NCBI RefSeq assembly: GCF_021502585.1 | Contig: NZ_JAKFGM010000001.1 | Location: 372,001 to 436,000, forward strand | DNA: 64,000 nt | Direction of reading: 5' to 3' | Origin: Sphingomonas cremea | Lineage (GTDB): Bacteria; Pseudomonadota; Alphaproteobacteria; Sphingomonadales; Sphingomonadaceae | Shown: in pieces, positions 5,987 through 37,448 of the stretch | How positions within the stretch are numbered: position 1 is the stretch's first letter | How the letters are laid out: the number at the start of each line of letters is the position of its first letter | The notes under the pieces: generated by a model | Seen by the model: only the letters and a program-made list of their open reading frames with translations | The model's database searches: none | What the model was told of the DNA's origin: nothing | Position numbers and translations under genes: made by a program

Positions 5987-6850
5987 CTAGCTCACGCGGG
6001 TGGTAGTGATGCCGCGCGACGCGAGCCAATGCTGAACGCTGTCCTTACCGGCAAGATGGCCGGTCCCGACCGCAACGAAGACCGTACCCGGCTGTTCCAG
6101 CCGCTTGGCAATCCACTGCCCCCAGCGCGCATTTCGGTCGGCGATCAACATGCGATAGGCGACCGGCGATTTGGCTTCGAAACCGGCGAGCATGGTAGAA
6201 AAGGCGCCTGTATTCCCCGTCGCCCAGGCGCTGAGCAGGTCATTGACGGTGACTGAGATCGCCGAGGCCGTTGGCTGCGGAGCAGCGGTAGAAGGGGCAG
6301 GGATATTGGCAAGGGCGCCAAGTTGATCCTCGAAGCGTTCCAATCCCCCGACTGGCTTTCCAACATTTTCGGCAACGCGTCGAAGTACGGTGTCGGCGCC
6401 ATTTTCTACGGACAAGCCAGCAGTGCGGCTTTGGCTAACGACCATCTGGGTCTGCGCGAAGAATGGCTTAACTCTAGCCGTTCCATCAGGGGCGCTTTCG
6501 GTGACCTGATTGCGTGCTGCCCGCTGGATCGCGTCCGGATCAGGAACGATGGTTTCCAATACCAGCTCGCCAGAGCGATCGAACGCGTCGCGGACCTTGT
6601 CGCCGAACCACACCGTACGTCCGTCCAGCGTGTGGAACGTTCCGAACAAATAGATGGTGGTGTCGGCGTCACGGATTTCCCAAAGGGCTGGTGTCGCCCG
6701 GACCAGGGCCGGAGCTGCGATTGCAGGAACTGGAGCGGCCTGGGTAGGAGCCGCAGTCGTCACTAGGAGCGCCAGAATGGCGTTTGCGCCCTTGCCAAAG
6801 AGTCGTTTCGGGGGCGTTCCTTGCCCACCGATTATCTGTGTCCGTGCCAC
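5987..6850 (-). CDS. TraB/GumN family protein
   Basis: A 287-residue protein with a hydrophobic N-terminal region (residues ~23-40, NAILALLVTTAAPTQAA) suggesting export. The TraB/GumN core is seen as PALWEIRDADTTIYLFGTFH near residue 55 and as GTVFVAVGTGHLAGKDSV with the conserved GxGHL near the C-terminus. The family is proposed to be related to metalloproteases (Tiki-like), but bacterial members are functionally uncharacterised. A paralogue lies directly upstream at 6962-7864 in the same orientation, so this is a tandem duplication. Confidence 0.85.
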   Translation of the reverse strand: MARTQIIGGQGTPPKRLFGKGANAILALLVTTAAPTQAAPVPAIAAPALVRATPALWEIRDADTTIYLFGTFHTLDGRTVWFGDKVRDAFDRSGELVLETIVPDPDAIQRAARNQVTESAPDGTARVKPFFAQTQMVVSQSRTAGLSVENGADTVLRRVAENVGKPVGGLERFEDQLGALANIPAPSTAAPQPTASAISVTVNDLLSAWATGNTGAFSTMLAGFEAKSPVAYRMLIADRNARWGQWIAKRLEQPGTVFVAVGTGHLAGKDSVQHWLASRGITTTRVS

Positions 6851-6961
6851 TGGCGACCCCCCGCCGTTTCAGAGTCAAACAGTCGGCCACAAATGGTTAA
6901 CGGTCAATTAGCTTGTTGATTTTTCACTGACTTTTGCGACGAACGGAGTGCCTGGCCGCTG

Positions 6962-7864
6962 CTATTGGACGCGGGTTATCTTGACGCCCTGTTGCTTGAG
7001 CACGGTCAGTACCGACTGATCGCCAGCAAGGTGGCCGGCGCCAACCGCAACAAGCACGGTACCCGGCTGGTCGAGCCGCCCTTTGACCCAACGTGCCCAA
7101 TTGGCGTTACGCTTTAACAATAGCGCATCCCTAAGCTCTGGAGAATCTCCAAGATCGGCGTTGAAGCTGTCGGCGATGCCCCGGACGTCGCCGCGGCTCC
7201 ACGCATCGAGCATGCCCTTAAACTGCGGCTTCATCGTAGCCGGGTCCTCAAGAACGGTCGCAAGAAATTTGCGTTGGGCATCTTCCGACAGCCTGTCGAA
7301 AAAGCCGAGCTGCTCGGCGTTAGTTTCAAGCTCGCCAATGGGCTTTCCGCCTGCCTCGAATTGCTTCTTCAAGGCGGATTCGACGCCGGATCCTGGATCC
7401 AGGCCAAGCTCCTGGAATTGAACTCCAAGTAGAAGGAACGCCGCCGCCCATGTCTCAAGCTTGTCAAAGGCTTGGGCCGGTAGGCCGGACTTGGCGATGG
7501 CAGACGCCAGCGCCGCCTTTTTATCCGGCTGCACGCGCTCGGCGATCGGCGGCAGCCCATCTGCCATCGCCAGCTTGAACAGCTCGCCAATGGTCGCTGT
7601 GGGGTTAGCCTCGTCGATTCTGGTTTCGACCACCAGAGTGTCCGATCCAGCGGCGGCCCGATCGAACGCCGGGCTGCGCCACTTTGTATCCTTCGGCAGC
7701 AGGTGGATCGTCCCGAACAAATAGATGGTGGTATCCTTGTCGGCGACCTTCCACATCGCCGGACTGGCAGCTTTGGGCTCGATCGCCGGTGCAGGGGCGC
7801 AGGCCGTCGCGGCAATCGCTCCGAAGGCGGCCAGCTTGCGGCCGCAACGCTTGAACAGGCTCAT
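6962..7864 (-). CDS. TraB/GumN family protein, paralogue with lipoprotein-like leader
   Basis: A 300-residue TraB/GumN protein. The leader MSLFKRCGRKLAAFGAIAAT followed by ACAPAP could be a lipobox-type or ordinary signal peptide. Core motifs match the neighbouring paralogue: MWKVADKDTTIYLFGTIHLL and GTVLVAVGAGHLAGDQSV. The two copies differ clearly in the middle, so the duplication is not recent. A 111-nt spacer separates them. Role unknown; envelope location inferred from the leader. Confidence 0.85.
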   Translation of the reverse strand: MSLFKRCGRKLAAFGAIAATACAPAPAIEPKAASPAMWKVADKDTTIYLFGTIHLLPKDTKWRSPAFDRAAAGSDTLVVETRIDEANPTATIGELFKLAMADGLPPIAERVQPDKKAALASAIAKSGLPAQAFDKLETWAAAFLLLGVQFQELGLDPGSGVESALKKQFEAGGKPIGELETNAEQLGFFDRLSEDAQRKFLATVLEDPATMKPQFKGMLDAWSRGDVRGIADSFNADLGDSPELRDALLLKRNANWARWVKGRLDQPGTVLVAVGAGHLAGDQSVLTVLKQQGVKITRVQ

Positions 7865-34406: not shown

Positions 34407-34760
34407 ATGAATGAATTTGTAGATCGGGCCTCCGATACCGTCGCAACGGCGATAGAAGTCATCATGGTGCTGGTGATTGTCATTGGTACCGTGCGGACAA
34501 TTGCGGCCATGGTCGGCCGGCTGGCAGCACGGCAGGCGCTTGCCCCGGCAGTACGGCAAATCTGGCTTCACTATGCTGCCTGGATTCTGCTGGCGCTCGA
34601 ATTCGCGCTGGCCGCCGACATCATTCGGACGATTGTCAGGCCCGATTGGAACGAGATTGGGCAGCTTGGAGCCATCGCCGCGATCCGGATCGCGCTCAGC
34701 TACTTCCTTGGGCGGGACATCGGCGAGGTAGAGCATACCGACGTAGCGGAGGCTCCATGA
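34407..34760 (+). CDS. DUF1622 membrane protein
   Basis: A 117-residue protein with three hydrophobic segments (IEVIMVLVIVIGTVRTIAAM, WLHYAAWILLALEFALAADI, LGAIAAIRIALSYFLG) and the DUF1622-type pattern LEFALAADIIRT. I start at ATG 34407, which gives the family's short N-terminus (MNEFVDRASD); upstream frame extension looks non-coding and there is no clear SD. It ends 58 nt before the tRNA-Lys 3' half that marks the island edge. Confidence 0.82.
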   Translation: MNEFVDRASDTVATAIEVIMVLVIVIGTVRTIAAMVGRLAARQALAPAVRQIWLHYAAWILLALEFALAADIIRTIVRPDWNEIGQLGAIAAIRIALSYFLGRDIGEVEHTDVAEAP

Positions 34761-34818: not shown

Positions 34819-34866
34819 TGGTGAGCCGTGCTGGATTCGAACCAGCGACCTACTGATTAAAAGTCA
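34819..34866 (-). pseudogene. 3' half of disrupted tRNA-Lys gene (attR side)
   Basis: On the minus strand, 34866 to 34819 reads TGACTTTTAA then ATCAGTAGGTCGC, the T-arm GCTGGTTCGAATCCAGC, ACGGCTC and ACCA. This is exactly the anticodon loop to CCA end of tRNA-Lys(UUU), base for base identical to the intact copy at 35134-35429. The 5' half is missing here and lies 2 kb away at 36900-36937. The segment before it (CCCTAG) does not pair as a tRNA, so this piece cannot be functional alone. Confidence 0.93.
34857..34866 (-). other. attachment core, DUF1622-side end of island
   Basis: The 10-bp sequence TGACTTTTAA on the minus strand, continuing into the tRNA-Lys 3' half (ATCAGTAGG). It is identical and in direct orientation to the core at 36900-36909. 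It covers the anticodon loop, a usual target for tyrosine recombinases. Confidence 0.88.
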
Positions 34867-34930
34867 CTAGGGAGCCGCCACAAAAACGGCTGTTTTCCTA
34901 GATTTCCGCCAATTCATGACGGTCAGTGTG

Positions 34931-34970
34931 GGGACTGGAAGGGACTGGAAGCGACAGGGAGCGACTGGAA
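34931..34970 (+). repeat. four tandem 10-bp repeats at island end
   Basis: Four consecutive decamers: GGGACTGGAA, GGGACTGGAA, GCGACAGGGA, GCGACTGGAA. They lie just inside the DUF1622-side attachment core and directly before the TCCGCACA pair. They may be protein-binding sites for an integrase or directionality factor; that role is inferred from position. Confidence 0.75.
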
Positions 34971-34991
34971 ATCCGCACACTATCCGCACAC
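34969..34991 (+). repeat. putative integrase arm-type repeats, DUF1622-side end
   Basis: Two close copies of A(A/T)TCCGCACA(C) are present at 34969-34980 and 34981-34991. The same arrangement in the same orientation is found near the other end of the island (36815-36836). Paired TCCGCACA-like repeats inside both ends are what is expected of arm-type binding sites of a tyrosine integrase. Confidence 0.65.
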
Positions 34992-35095
34992 TGGGCCGCA
35001 AAATTAGGCGAAGAAGCCGGAACCTATCGGGGGTTCTTCTCGCACATAGACCTACTGCTTTTCCCGGCACATTTCCGGCGAGTTGAGCGCAATCC

Positions 35096-35124
35096 TTGAA
35101 CTTACTGAAATCCCCCACTAATGC
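35096..35124 (+). promoter_or_regulatory. putative sigma-70 promoter of the intron-containing tRNA-Lys
   Basis: A -35 box TTGAAC (35096-35101), a 17-nt spacer and a -10 box TAATGC (35119-35124) place transcription start about 7 nt downstream, right at the tRNA 5' end (35134). The island copy therefore seems to carry its own promoter. Confidence 0.6.
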
Positions 35125-35133
35125 CGCGCCAGT

Positions 35134-35429
35134 GGGCCGTTAGCTCAGTCGGTAGAGCAACTGACTTTCGGAGGAAGCCCAAGCAGGAAACTGCTTGGTG
35201 AACAGGTGTCAAACTCGGGGAACCCTTCCGCGTCGCGGCGATGGCAATCCCGAGCCAAGCCAGGGGAAACTCTGGAAGGTGTAGAGACTTGATGGCACCC
35301 GCCTAAACCAGCGTAGGCTGGCATGGCGAAGGGAAAGTCCAGACTCCAAACGCCCTGTCGGGCGGCGGCGAAAGCCGTGGTGGGTATGTAATCAGTAGGT
35401 CGCTGGTTCGAATCCAGCACGGCTCACCA
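35134..35429 (+). tRNA. tRNA-Lys(UUU) interrupted by a group I intron
   Basis: The exons 35134-35168 and 35389-35429 join into a 76-nt tRNA-Lys with encoded CCA. Acceptor GGGCCGT pairs with ACGGCTC, the D-arm reads AGCTCAGTCGGTAGAGC, the anticodon stem-loop is CTGA-CTTTTAA-TCAG (anticodon UUU) and the T-arm is GCTGGTTCGAATCCAGC. The 220-nt insertion between U35 and U36 must be spliced out for function. Exons are identical to the split native gene halves flanking the island. It lies on the opposite strand to those halves. Confidence 0.94.
35169..35388 (+). ncRNA. group I intron (IC3-like) in the tRNA-Lys anticodon
   Basis: 220 nt, no open reading frame for a homing endonuclease. P1 is visible: exon CTTT (35165-35168) pairs with intron GAAG (35174-35177), ending in the required U-G wobble at the 5' splice site; the last intron base is G (35388). 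Core segments closely resemble the Azoarcus tRNA-Ile intron: AGGTGTCAAACTCGGGGAA, ATGGCAATCCCGAGCCAAGC, GAAGGTGTAGAGACTTGATG, GGCACCCGCCTAA, GGGAAAGTCCAGAC (P7 AGACT/AGTC) and GGCGAAAGCC. Self-splicing is expected from these features but is not demonstrated. Confidence 0.93.
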
Positions 35430-35438
35430 ATTCTCGAT

Positions 35439-35462
35439 GTCCGCTTTTGGTGGAAAGCGGAC
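35439..35462. repeat. palindrome copy 1, after the small membrane protein gene
   Basis: A perfect 9-bp stem GTCCGCTTT/AAAGCGGAC with loop TGGTGG. It abuts the stop codon of the 79-residue gene (stop at 35463-35465, minus strand) and lies 10 nt after the tRNA-Lys CCA end, where it could act as a terminator for the tRNA. Related copies lie at 35728-35755 and 36001-36026. Confidence 0.8.
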
Positions 35463-35702
35463 TTATCTCCGCCGGTATTCTCGGTCCATCTTCCAGACCA
35501 CAATAACATGGCCGACGGCAACGCTGACCACCGCAACTATGCCCGCCGTCCAGGCCATCAGGGGATGCGCTTTGGCATAGATGACAGATGCGATGCCCAA
35601 TGGAACAGCCACAGCTGCCATCGCGGCAATGACGGCCCAACCCTGCCACGTCACGGGTTGGTAGCTGATGCGAGCATAAGGGCGGAACCAAGGGTCAGAC
35701 AT
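35463..35702 (-). CDS. small island membrane protein, hypothetical
   Basis: A 79-residue protein with two hydrophobic helices (WAVIAAMAAVAVPLGIASVI and WTAGIVAVVSVAVGHVIVVW) and a basic C-terminus (KMDREYRRR). ATG 35702 has no clear SD. It is the last of three minus-strand island genes and is followed directly by palindrome copy 1. A membrane partner for the TIR protein is conceivable, but nothing in the sequence shows it. Confidence 0.55.
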   Translation of the reverse strand: MSDPWFRPYARISYQPVTWQGWAVIAAMAAVAVPLGIASVIYAKAHPLMAWTAGIVAVVSVAVGHVIVVWKMDREYRRR

Positions 35703-35727
35703 GCGGCGAGCCTATGCAGGCCAGCTT

Positions 35728-35755
35728 ATGACCGCAATGGGTGGAAAGCGGTCAT
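35728..35755. repeat. palindrome copy 2, after the Cys-rich protein gene
   Basis: Stem ATGACCGC/GCGGTCAT (8 bp) around a 12-nt loop containing AATGGGTGGAAA. It begins 3 nt after the stop codon of the 71-residue gene (minus strand). The loop and stem share GGGTGGAAAGCGG with copy 1 and GGGT-GAAAGCGGTC with copy 3. Confidence 0.8.
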
Positions 35756-35758
35756 TAG

Positions 35759-35974
35759 CTAATGCACGTTTGAAGCCGCATCAGCGTCGCGGTCGTAGAC
35801 ATTCCATGGTTCCGGCAAGTCAGGAAGTCGCTCTTCAAAGCACGCGATGTGGCACCACCACGTCTTCGTTACCTCGCTCCTCGTTCCGACCGTTAGATAG
35901 CTTGGATCGGCATTTGAGTAGTCGATCTTGCCGCAGAAGCAGCAAGGGGTGATCGGGTGCGGTTGGTCGTTCAT
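35759..35974 (-). CDS. small Cys-rich (zinc-binding-like) island protein
   Basis: A 71-residue protein with two cysteine clusters: PCCFCGK (residues 11-14) and WWCHIACFEERL (~41-45). This C-x-x-C / C-H-x-x-C layout suggests a small zinc ribbon or treble clef. No clear SD precedes ATG 35974. It lies between the TIR gene and a small membrane protein gene, each followed by a related palindrome. Family not recognised; zinc binding inferred. Confidence 0.55.
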   Translation of the reverse strand: MNDQPHPITPCCFCGKIDYSNADPSYLTVGTRSEVTKTWWCHIACFEERLPDLPEPWNVYDRDADAASNVH

Positions 35975-36000
35975 GTAGCCAGTCTGCCGGTCCGGCGTAG

Positions 36001-36026
36001 TGTCCGCAATGGGTCGAAAGCGGTCG
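36001..36026. repeat. palindrome copy 3, after the TIR gene
   Basis: Imperfect palindrome with arms TGTCCGC and GCGGTCG around AATGGGTCGAAA, abutting the TIR stop codon (36027-36029). Same family as copies 1 and 2. Palindromes with the core CCGCTTTCGACCCATTGCGG are, from memory, common between genes in sphingomonads. Confidence 0.78.
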
Positions 36027-36755
36027 CTAGAACGGTAAGTCCTCGTCAGGCTCTTCGCCCTTCAGCGCCTTCTTTGCTTCAGCTAGGCGTCCGGACGTTC
36101 GCTCATCCTTAGCGAGGATCATTTCTATCTCTGCCGCGATGGCGTCGGCGTTCCTACCGCGCCTAGGTAGAGCCTGCTGCTTAGAAATGAAGCCAGTCGG
36201 ATCTTCGTCTTCCATTTTGAACGAGATCACCTTTGCCCCCCGGCCAAAGGCAAACCCCACCTCCTGTTGCGTCCAATTGCTCTGCGAAAATCCTTCGGTG
36301 AGCATTGCAATAAAGCCATCCATCGTGCGCAAGGCTCGCTCAATTTCTGATTGCCACTCCAGCGTCGGATGGATGTCTTCATGGGCAACAAAAGCGTCGA
36401 TCCCGAACGGCACCAGCGCTTCCTTCAACCGGGTAGCCTTTTGGGCGTCTTTGGAAATGTGACTGATAAAAAGCCGGAACAGCTTTGTGTCTTGCCAATT
36501 TTCTGGGGGCAAGGAAGCACTTGTCGGACTAGCACTAACTTCCATCCCAAGTTCGTCTGCAATCTTAAGGATTGTCTCCGTCGCGACGCCGCGCAGGGCA
36601 GTCTTCACATAAATCCACTTGCTGTTGACTGTAACATTCTGCGGAGGCGAGACGGCGAACTCCGCGAGGAAACCATTGATTTCCTCGTATGTGAAACGGC
36701 TTTGAAGTTCGCGTCCGATATTGTCGATCAAGTTGATCTTATCGATGATACGCAA
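36027..36755 (-). CDS. TIR-domain protein (putative defence NADase)
   Basis: A 242-residue protein. Residues ~91-190 form a TIR domain: LFRLFISHISKDAQKATRLK, FGIDAFVAHEDI, LEWQSEIERAL with Glu137 at the usual catalytic position, and SNWTQQEVGFAFGRG. Bacterial TIR proteins in defence systems consume NAD or make signalling nucleotides on phage infection. Residues 1-75 are a separate module (YEEINGFLAEF ... NSKWIYVKTALRGVA) that I cannot name; it may sense or oligomerise. The C-terminus is charged. TTG 36755 is the start (GGGAG 8 nt upstream). It lies in the same direction as, and 145 nt after, the broken tRNA-Lys 5' half, so the tRNA promoter could feed it. Confidence 0.85.
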   Translation of the reverse strand: MRIIDKINLIDNIGRELQSRFTYEEINGFLAEFAVSPPQNVTVNSKWIYVKTALRGVATETILKIADELGMEVSASPTSASLPPENWQDTKLFRLFISHISKDAQKATRLKEALVPFGIDAFVAHEDIHPTLEWQSEIERALRTMDGFIAMLTEGFSQSNWTQQEVGFAFGRGAKVISFKMEDEDPTGFISKQQALPRRGRNADAIAAEIEMILAKDERTSGRLAEAKKALKGEEPDEDLPF

Positions 36756-36814
36756 GACTACAGCTCCCGCTTACTCCCCCAGTGTGCGACTTTTCTCGCA
36801 CGAAAAACGACGAA

Positions 36815-36836
36815 AATCCGCACATTTTCCGCACAC
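36815..36836 (+). repeat. putative integrase arm-type repeats, folK-side end
   Basis: AATCCGCACA and TTTCCGCACAC occur side by side, matching the pair at 34969-34991 in sequence and orientation. Just beyond, 36838-36855 is a perfect hairpin GACTCCT/AGGAGTC with loop CAAA. These sit 45-85 nt inside the attachment core. Confidence 0.65.
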
Positions 36837-36837
36837 A

Positions 36838-36855
36838 GACTCCTCAAAAGGAGTC
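36838..36855. repeat. short perfect hairpin near the island end
   Basis: GACTCCT (36838-36844), loop CAAA, AGGAGTC (36849-36855). On the minus strand it lies between the tRNA-Lys 5' half and the TIR gene, so it could attenuate read-through from the tRNA promoter or be part of the recombination site. There is no T-run, so it is not a canonical terminator. Confidence 0.55.
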
Positions 36856-36899
36856 GTGCTAAGCTTAAGCAATTGAAATATAAGGGTGTTCTGTTGGCC

Positions 36900-36909
36900 T
36901 TAAAAGTCA
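36900..36909 (-). other. attachment core, folK-side end of island
   Basis: The minus-strand sequence TGACTTTTAA is at the end of the tRNA-Lys 5' half and continues into island sequence (GGCCAACAG) instead of ATCAG. It is identical to the core at 34857-34866. Confidence 0.88.
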
Positions 36910-36937
36910 GTTGCTCTACCGACTGAGCTAACGGCCC
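36900..36937 (-). pseudogene. 5' half of disrupted tRNA-Lys gene (attL side)
   Basis: On the minus strand, 36937 to 36900 reads GGGCCGTTAGCTCAGTCGG, TAGAGCAAC and TGACTTTTAA: tRNA-Lys from base 1 through the anticodon loop, identical to the intact copy. It then runs into unrelated island DNA. It starts 19 nt after the folK stop, so the native tRNA was probably expressed with or from within folK. The 3' half is at 34819-34866. Confidence 0.93.
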
Positions 36938-36956: not shown

Positions 36957-37448
36957 TTAGCTTGCTCGCCGCCGCTTGCCAAGGCGCGAGGCGAGGTGAC
37001 GGGGCGTCAAACTGCCGTCGATCCGCCAACCCGGCGCAATGGCAGCCAAGGGCCCGATCACGAAATCGCGCTGTGCGAGCCTTGGATGGGGGATTGTCAG
37101 GCGCCGAGTAACGAAGCGACCACCGTCCCATGCGACGAGATCGAGATCGAGCACCCGCTCCCCCCAGCGGCGGCCGCGGCGGCGACCGAAGTCCCGCTCA
37201 ACTCCTTTGAGCGCATCCAACATCTCCGCCGGTTCCAGATCGCTCTCCACCAACGCGACAGCATTGGCGAAGTCTCGACCCGCACCACCGACCGCTTTGT
37301 TGAGGATGATCGGCGACGCATCGAAAAGGGAGTATTCCGCATCAAGTCGGCCGATCGCCGCTTCGACCACGCCCGCCGGTCGGCCGTGGCGGATATGGCG
37401 ACGGTTGGAGCCGATCGCGATGGCGTAGAGATGCGTTGCTCGCCCCAT
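36957..37448 (-). CDS. folK: 2-amino-4-hydroxy-6-hydroxymethyldihydropteridine pyrophosphokinase
   Basis: A 163-residue HPPK that pyrophosphorylates 6-hydroxymethyl-dihydropterin in folate synthesis. Motifs seen: IAIGSNRRH, FANAVALVESDLEP, RRWGERVLDLDLVAWDG with the Mg-binding D-x-D and the IPHPRLAQRDFVIGPLA signature. The native tRNA-Lys lies just downstream. No other folate gene is adjacent. Confidence 0.94.
   Translation of the reverse strand: MGRATHLYAIAIGSNRRHIRHGRPAGVVEAAIGRLDAEYSLFDASPIILNKAVGGAGRDFANAVALVESDLEPAEMLDALKGVERDFGRRRGRRWGERVLDLDLVAWDGGRFVTRRLTIPHPRLAQRDFVIGPLAAIAPGWRIDGSLTPRHLASRLGKRRRAS

Follow-up and report, generated by a model that had tools for sequence, protein, structure and literature searches.

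A small integrase-less island in Sphingomonas cremea that splits tRNA-Lys(UUU) and carries an intron-bearing spare gene

How can a bacterium live with a tRNA-Lys(UUU) gene cut in two at its anticodon loop, and how did the interrupting DNA come to lie there? The question is raised by a 64,000-nucleotide stretch of the Sphingomonas cremea genome (contig NZ_JAKFGM010000001.1, positions 372,001 to 436,000; the whole stretch is hereafter the window), in which the native minus-strand tRNA-Lys(UUU) gene is split by a 2,043-bp island. The island is very probably a small, non-autonomous integrative element, likely to be mobilised in trans, which carries a defence-type gene together with a spare tRNA-Lys gene that contains a group I intron.

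The split gene and its replacement

The two halves of the native gene, the island and the replacement gene occupy the following positions of the window.

36900..36937, minus strand: 5' half of the native tRNA-Lys(UUU), ending in the core TGACTTTTAA at 36909-36900
34819..34866, minus strand: 3' half of the native tRNA-Lys(UUU), with CCA, starting in the core TGACTTTTAA at 34866-34857
34867..36899, no strand: island between the two cores, 2,043 bp with one core counted
35134-35429, plus strand: replacement tRNA-Lys(UUU), whole gene, whose joined exons equal the rejoined native gene
35134..35168, plus strand: replacement exon 1, up to U35, the splice point being placed by P1 pairing with U.G
35169..35388, plus strand: group I intron, 220 nt, last nucleotide G, from the match to RF00028 and an alignment of 12 homologues
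35389..35429, plus strand: replacement exon 2, U36 to CCA, from sequence comparison

The 10-bp core TGACTTTTAA is present in both halves in direct orientation, and when the halves are rejoined at one TGACTTTTAA a perfect 76-nt tRNA-Lys(UUU) results. At about 10 bp the core is too short for the target tRNA to be rebuilt and, as no 3' tRNA segment is supplied at the island end, insertion leaves the target gene in two pieces. An initial annotation of this DNA had described such a split, with DNA inserted by way of a short core in the anticodon loop, as well as a complete second tRNA-Lys with exons identical to the halves; both descriptions hold, the spliced replacement and the rejoined native gene, which lie on opposite strands, being identical at 76 of 76 nucleotides. 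That annotation recognised the exons but not the 220-nt group I intron in the anticodon, which sits between U35 and U36 and interrupts the core there. ARAGORN in its default mode likewise reported no tRNA in the window, and found the replacement gene once introns were allowed.

The site without the island was sought in the 24 best-scoring loci of the genus with an intact tRNA-Lys(UUU) (L009-L032). In 22 of these folK lies within about 1.1 kb of the intact gene, and an empty site therefore exists; the expectation that it would be flanked by folK and a DUF1622 gene was borne out on one side only, as no DUF1622 gene was found beside tRNA-Lys in the relatives examined. The intact gene has the sequence of the spliced replacement in seven of the 24 loci, and identity alone is therefore no proof of capture from this host. 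Searches with two patterns found no further tRNA-Lys(UUU) on the nine contigs of the genome, so that the tally of tRNA-Lys genes that the annotation had called for comes, by pattern, to the split UUU gene, the replacement UUU gene and an intact tRNA-Lys(CUU). Under standard decoding rules tRNA-Lys(CUU) is unable to read AAA, and the genome probably depends on the replacement. Nor was an intact tRNA-Lys(UUU), at one mismatch or fewer, found in any of 12 genomes with the intron-bearing gene, several of which are incomplete metagenome-assembled genomes.

This dependence had been taken to make loss of the island costly. Exact excision, however, restores a perfect tRNA from the rejoined halves, and for that reason clean loss should be free and non-lethal; a cost arises only with imprecise deletion, and only a partial deletion of the island would be lethal.

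The intron and its homologues

The intron of the window matches the Rfam group I family RF00028 with 36.6 bits (E 4.4e-7; gathering score 50), and the homologous intron of genome G117 reaches 61.6 bits, above the gathering score. In one scan RF00028 was matched in seven of nine loci, Daredevil (nothing at E <=0.01) and Tistrella being unmatched there; searched alone, the introns of these two scored 15.4 bits (E 0.14) and 25 bits (E 0.00019), respectively. Twelve homologous intron tRNA-Lys genes are alignable over their full length, and from their alignment RNAalifold predicts 75 pairs, 43 of which show compensatory change. In the predicted P1 the intron is paired with the anticodon side of exon 1; at the splice point the pair is U35.G in 11 of the 12 sequences and C.G in the remaining one, and the final intron nucleotide is G in all 12. 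A covariance model built from ten introns, with Daredevil and viral contig L124 left out, recovers Daredevil at 100.1 bits (E 1.1e-26) and L124 at 136.5 bits (E 5.7e-37), and homology of the introns is therefore firm. The intron is probably self-splicing.

Intron-bearing tRNA-Lys genes are rare: a pattern scan of 84,980 species gave 12 matches, of which 11 were kept, the one dropped (L050, Bacillota) being a short duplication in tRNA-Lys and not an intron. Split sites are rare as well: a pattern scan for them returned this genome only, both of 397 in the family and of 386 in the class, and an additional split site was seen in G069 among 149 relatives. All four split sites found (G000, G069, G516 and G117) carry an intron-bearing tRNA-Lys, and in all four elements a distance of about 170-270 bp separates the start of the spare gene from a core, the gene being directed away from that core. 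In G069, a member of the same genus, the same split holds an island of about 3.8 kb with the intron tRNA-Lys on the opposite strand and, in place of the TIR-domain gene of the window island, a restriction-modification cargo of an Eco57I-type methylase and a BsuBI/PstI endonuclease. In G516, an alphaproteobacterium from a termite gut whose element is an autonomous relative, the split halves are 6.3 kb apart, the intron tRNA-Lys is near the 5' half, and a 438-aa integrase (PF00589 with Arm-DNA-bind_3) touches the 3' half; the broken 5' half appears to pair poorly in the acceptor stem, which reads like the decay of a dead gene. The further genes of G516 encode a DUF488 protein and an AAA_13 protein (L073:2963-5248). 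The latter resembles PADLOC PDC-S06 and, weakly, the anticodon nuclease PrrC, and it is encoded on an element that targets tRNA-Lys. In the fourth case (G117/G517) the 5' half and the intron tRNA-Lys are on one contig and the 3' half is on another.

The intron tRNA-Lys is also found alone: some chromosomes that have no split halves contain it as their sole detected UUU gene. In Sphingomonas sp. ID1715 (G276) it lies between a dipeptidase gene and scpB (L060:9723-10018), and a plain tRNA-Lys stands beside folK in four of six genomes of the genus of this strain, which suggests that the lone gene is a domesticated element gene that moved. On a 1.26-Mb plasmid of Tritonibacter mobilis a tRNA with a group I intron (L105:2909-3236) has repeats AGTCCCCCTTTA just downstream, and no integrase match was found beside it; on a conjugative plasmid of Bradyrhizobium, a LysR regulator and trbH flank a tRNA-Leu(UAA) that contains a group I intron (L106:2399-2689). 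The intron core is also matched, at 60-80% identity, by 1,263 plasmid records, mostly of Escherichia and Klebsiella, the listed places being unannotated.

Among phages, a blastn search of a phage collection with the window gene returned, besides plain tRNA matches, the Gordonia phage Daredevil (NC_048021; cluster DL; 90 kb). Its genome holds a tRNA-Lys(UUU) gene (L107:1419-1730) that is missing from the annotation and is interrupted by a 238-nt group I intron after U34, as against U35 in the window gene; the attP core CGGACTTTTAATCCGC and then the intron tRNA lie between the integrase and neighbouring genes. The viral contig L124 (IMGVR_UViG_3300022744_000027) has the same layout around the core ACTCTTAA, with an intron-bearing tRNA-Lys(CUU) at 6025-6311 and a tyrosine integrase at 6618-7784: in both, the intron tRNA reads away from the core and the integrase lies across it. 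Daredevil has been reported to integrate at tRNA-Lys-TTT without rebuilding it, to lack tRNAs and to form clear plaques, as predicted (PMC10865867). The intron tRNA-Lys hidden in its sequence, as predicted here, contradicts the published absence.

At least 119 viral stretches contain the intron motif, and 80 were fetched. ARAGORN reported an intron tRNA in 75 of these, most often tRNA-Leu(UAA); only two, L124 and L175 (which is Daredevil), have a lysine loop, and the same two alone match any of six integrases, a comparison that misses other integrase families and integrases beyond the fetched stretch. Nine viral matches to the exon pattern were rejected, as on reading none has a group I intron in the tRNA-Lys position; they are short insertions or, in three, an HNH open reading frame (ORF). 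Viral contigs L076, L080 and L082 have a tRNA-Lys-like 5' half followed by an HNH-type ORF where the group I intron would be. A viral pattern for an intron in tRNA-Lys(CUU) gave no match, and one for tRNA-Ile2(CAT) gave a single chance match inside a protein gene.

Movement of the island and the part played by the intron

The remaining features of the island and its flanks are listed below.

34407..34760, plus strand: DUF1622 gene, flank
34924..34998, no strand: sub-terminal repeats by the 3'-half end, TGTGSGR type plus GGGACTGGAA, resembling arm-type integrase sites
35463..35702, minus strand: small ORF of 79 aa without Pfam match, which may not be a gene
35759..35974, minus strand: small ORF of 71 aa without Pfam match, which may not be a gene
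36027..36755, minus strand: cargo gene for a TIR-domain protein of 242 aa (PF13676, 51.6 bits)
36781..36838, no strand: sub-terminal repeats by the 5'-half end, TGTGSGR type
36957..37448, minus strand: folK (HPPK), flank, whose place beside the intact gene is conserved among relatives

The TIR protein has weak matches to the ThsB and SAVED-TIR models of PADLOC. With this cargo and two small ORFs only, the island is not a temperate phage. The motif TGTGSGR occurs 26 times in the 64 kb, seven of them within the island and mostly close to its ends. The island also has GC-rich hairpin-like repeats of the form GTCCGC...GCGGAC (35437-35463, 35738-35756 and 36008-36027), similar to ones in L034 near 2630-2720. 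A weak tRNA-like fold at 34822-34892, which takes in the 3' half and the island end, scores 27.5 bits, just below the gathering score of 29.

Neither the ORF list nor a Pfam search gave an integrase ORF in the 2-kb island, which would thus need a helper integrase in trans. Short repeats particular to each element lie just within its ends; in the G069 island they take the form AGTGTGGGA(N3)AGTGTGGGA at both ends. When the genomes of 120 relatives were searched for the G069 form AGTGTGGGANNNAGTGTGGGA, at one mismatch or fewer, five places were found, two of them the ends of the G069 island and the other three immediately in front of the tyrosine integrase genes of G064, G043 and G031, which in two of these genomes stand beside tRNA-Ser. 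These integrases are 42-45% identical to a 390-aa integrase in the genome of the window, which has three PF00589 genes. Because the end repeats of G069 match repeats upstream of sister-genome integrases, mobilisation of the islands in trans is likely, and the match points to an integrase family that could move them. The 390-aa integrase itself was considered as the helper and set aside, as its upstream repeats differ on reading from those of the window island, which are of the TGTGCGGA type, related to those of G069 but different. As the search covered the G069 form, the sharing of repeats with integrase sites is claimed for the G069 island and no longer for the window island itself.

The explanation that best accommodates these observations runs as follows. 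The island, in a circular form, would be acted on by a tyrosine recombinase that is provided in trans and probably belongs to the Arm-DNA-bind_3 (DUF4102-like) family; its short core would recombine with the identical 10 bp of the tRNA-Lys(UUU) anticodon loop. Integration would cut the target gene in two, and the cell would survive through the complete tRNA-Lys(UUU) of the island, after splicing of the group I intron, which lies within the anticodon, in the middle of the target sequence of the integrase. The sequence shows the split and its core, a gene that is intact in relatives, a replacement that is identical once spliced and the lack of any other detected UUU gene. To these can be added the homologous intron structure, the integrase-bearing relative and the matching terminal repeats of G069. 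We infer from them the integration in trans, the splicing and a viability that would depend on the replacement.

Several points weigh against this explanation. The island has no integrase, and its repeats appear similar to those of G069 without being the same. The window intron scores below the Rfam gathering score, that of Daredevil reaches only 15.4 bits with Rfam (E 0.14), and the splicing of the replacement tRNA is itself deduced from sequence. The clear plaques of Daredevil, moreover, could mean that its spare tRNA does not work in that host.

With less confidence, it may be proposed that the intron lets the island carry a tRNA identical to that of the host without offering a second integrase target, either in the island or, later, in the chromosome. 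The intron would then act as a shield, the core being hidden in DNA and the tRNA restored in RNA, so that the element neither attacks itself nor leaves the cell a site for competing tRNA-Lys integrators; phages and tiny defence islands mobilised in trans, of different phyla, would have reached the same solution, and the lone chromosomal intron tRNA-Lys genes may be domesticated remains of such elements. We hold this only tentatively, its chances being somewhat under even. The longest match of the inferred attP to a single exon across the core is 5-9 bp in five of six intron cases; in G516 a 12-bp attP match is kept, outside the loop. Seven intron-free phage spares, in turn, match their own attP over 7, 7, 9, 9, 10, 10 and 11 bp, so that only two of the seven, those with the 7-bp match, clearly avoid the core by sequence change. 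That the other five retain 9-11 bp of the attP core weakens the shielding proposal, as an unmasked core would therefore seem to be tolerated by phages. Core shielding is thus one possible benefit, plausible and unproven, whose likelihood stays short of an even chance.

The main rival to shielding is that the intron is a passenger, captured with tRNA-Lys by chance and without a role in integration, a reading whose probability falls only just below even. Group I introns favour tRNA anticodon loops, many viral tRNAs of other isotypes hold such introns with no integrase detected nearby (78 of the 80 fetched contigs), the lone intron tRNA-Lys is the sole detected UUU gene of chromosomes without split halves, and seven integrase relatives of the element type of Daredevil use intron-free spare tRNAs, all of which suits chance capture. 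Yet the intron-bearing tRNA-Lys, for all its rarity (11 of 12 matches in the 84,980 species), is present in all four split sites, and of the viral intron tRNAs it is the two lysine ones that come with an integrase match.

A further possibility, with the odds rather against it, is that the island is a decayed prophage or integrative element, formerly with an integrase of its own and now fixed, in which the TIR gene is leftover cargo. It differs from the mobilisable island favoured here in present mobility only. In its favour are the lack of an integrase in the island and the presence of an integrase gene next to the core in G516 and in the phages. Against it, the halves are undecayed, and both islands of the genus are compact to the same degree, keep their cargo intact and have repeats at either end, features that suit a mobilisable design. 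An old rearrangement, in which a tandem or inverted duplication of tRNA-Lys was followed by insertion of DNA without site-specific recombination, would suit the opposite strand of the replacement and its native-identical exons, but is very improbable: the core is precise at both ends, relatives have the gene intact, G069 has other cargo at the same site, an integrase lies at the G516 junction, and arm-like repeats are shared with integrase genes.

Comparison with known systems

The findings extend a recent phage strategy to very small, integrase-less islands of alphaproteobacteria, and suggest a function for a bacterial group I intron, namely protection of DNA from the recombinase of its own element. 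They correct the record of Daredevil, in which a spare tRNA-Lys is present, and tRNA finders without intron detection miss such spare genes. As the islands carry defence-type genes, the arrangement may help to spread such genes between strains.

The window island resembles, in part, the mobilisable islands known as cis-mobilisable elements (CIMEs) and mobilisable genomic islands (MGIs), which have attL/attR-like cores, cargo inside and an integrase expected in trans. Such islands, however, rebuild their target or are not known to break it, whereas here an essential tRNA is broken and complemented. With other bacterial tRNA group I introns (RF00028; in tRNA-Leu, -Ile and -Arg) the window intron shares its fold and its location in the anticodon loop; unlike them, it interrupts a tRNA-Lys gene and is carried by an element whose target is that same site.

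The closest parallel is the tRNA-dependent lysogeny of actinobacteriophages, in which breaking a tRNA and supplying a spare has already been described (Guerrero-Bustamante and Hatfull 2024, mBio, PMC10865867), so that the design, which the initial annotation called uncommon, has a precedent. In these phages, as in the island, the core measures about 10 bp and falls within the anticodon loop, in the phages that of tRNA-Lys(UUU) among other tRNAs; the host gene is not rebuilt, and the element brings a cognate spare tRNA, which in Cain, Mollymur, Bantam, SpeedDemon and OneUp also adjoins attP and reads away. Those are phages of actinobacteria with their own integrase and spares reported as intron-free, whereas the islands described here are alphaproteobacterial, 2-4 kb in size and integrase-less, with an intron in the spare. 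The window island has the short core, the identical spare and the lack of any other detected host copy that mark tRNA-dependent integration, and lacks its own tyrosine integrase and the nature of a temperate phage; G516, L124 and Daredevil do have a tyrosine integrase. Daredevil shares with the island a core followed by tRNA-Lys(UUU) with a group I intron, and differs in being a 90-kb phage and in having the intron after U34.

In PMC10865867 the word 'intron' occurs in a reference title only, and passages from reports of similar complementation, by rhizobial prophages (PMC12429752, PMC11476347) and in PMC13015707, do not mention introns. Searches of the non-subscription literature that paired group I introns with integration, or with tRNA-Lys, found no description of this combination, nor were the intron in the spare gene and its use by small integrase-less islands found in print. 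The island is thus a real and well-supported element that combines a known strategy with a new component, the intron, and a new kind of carrier.

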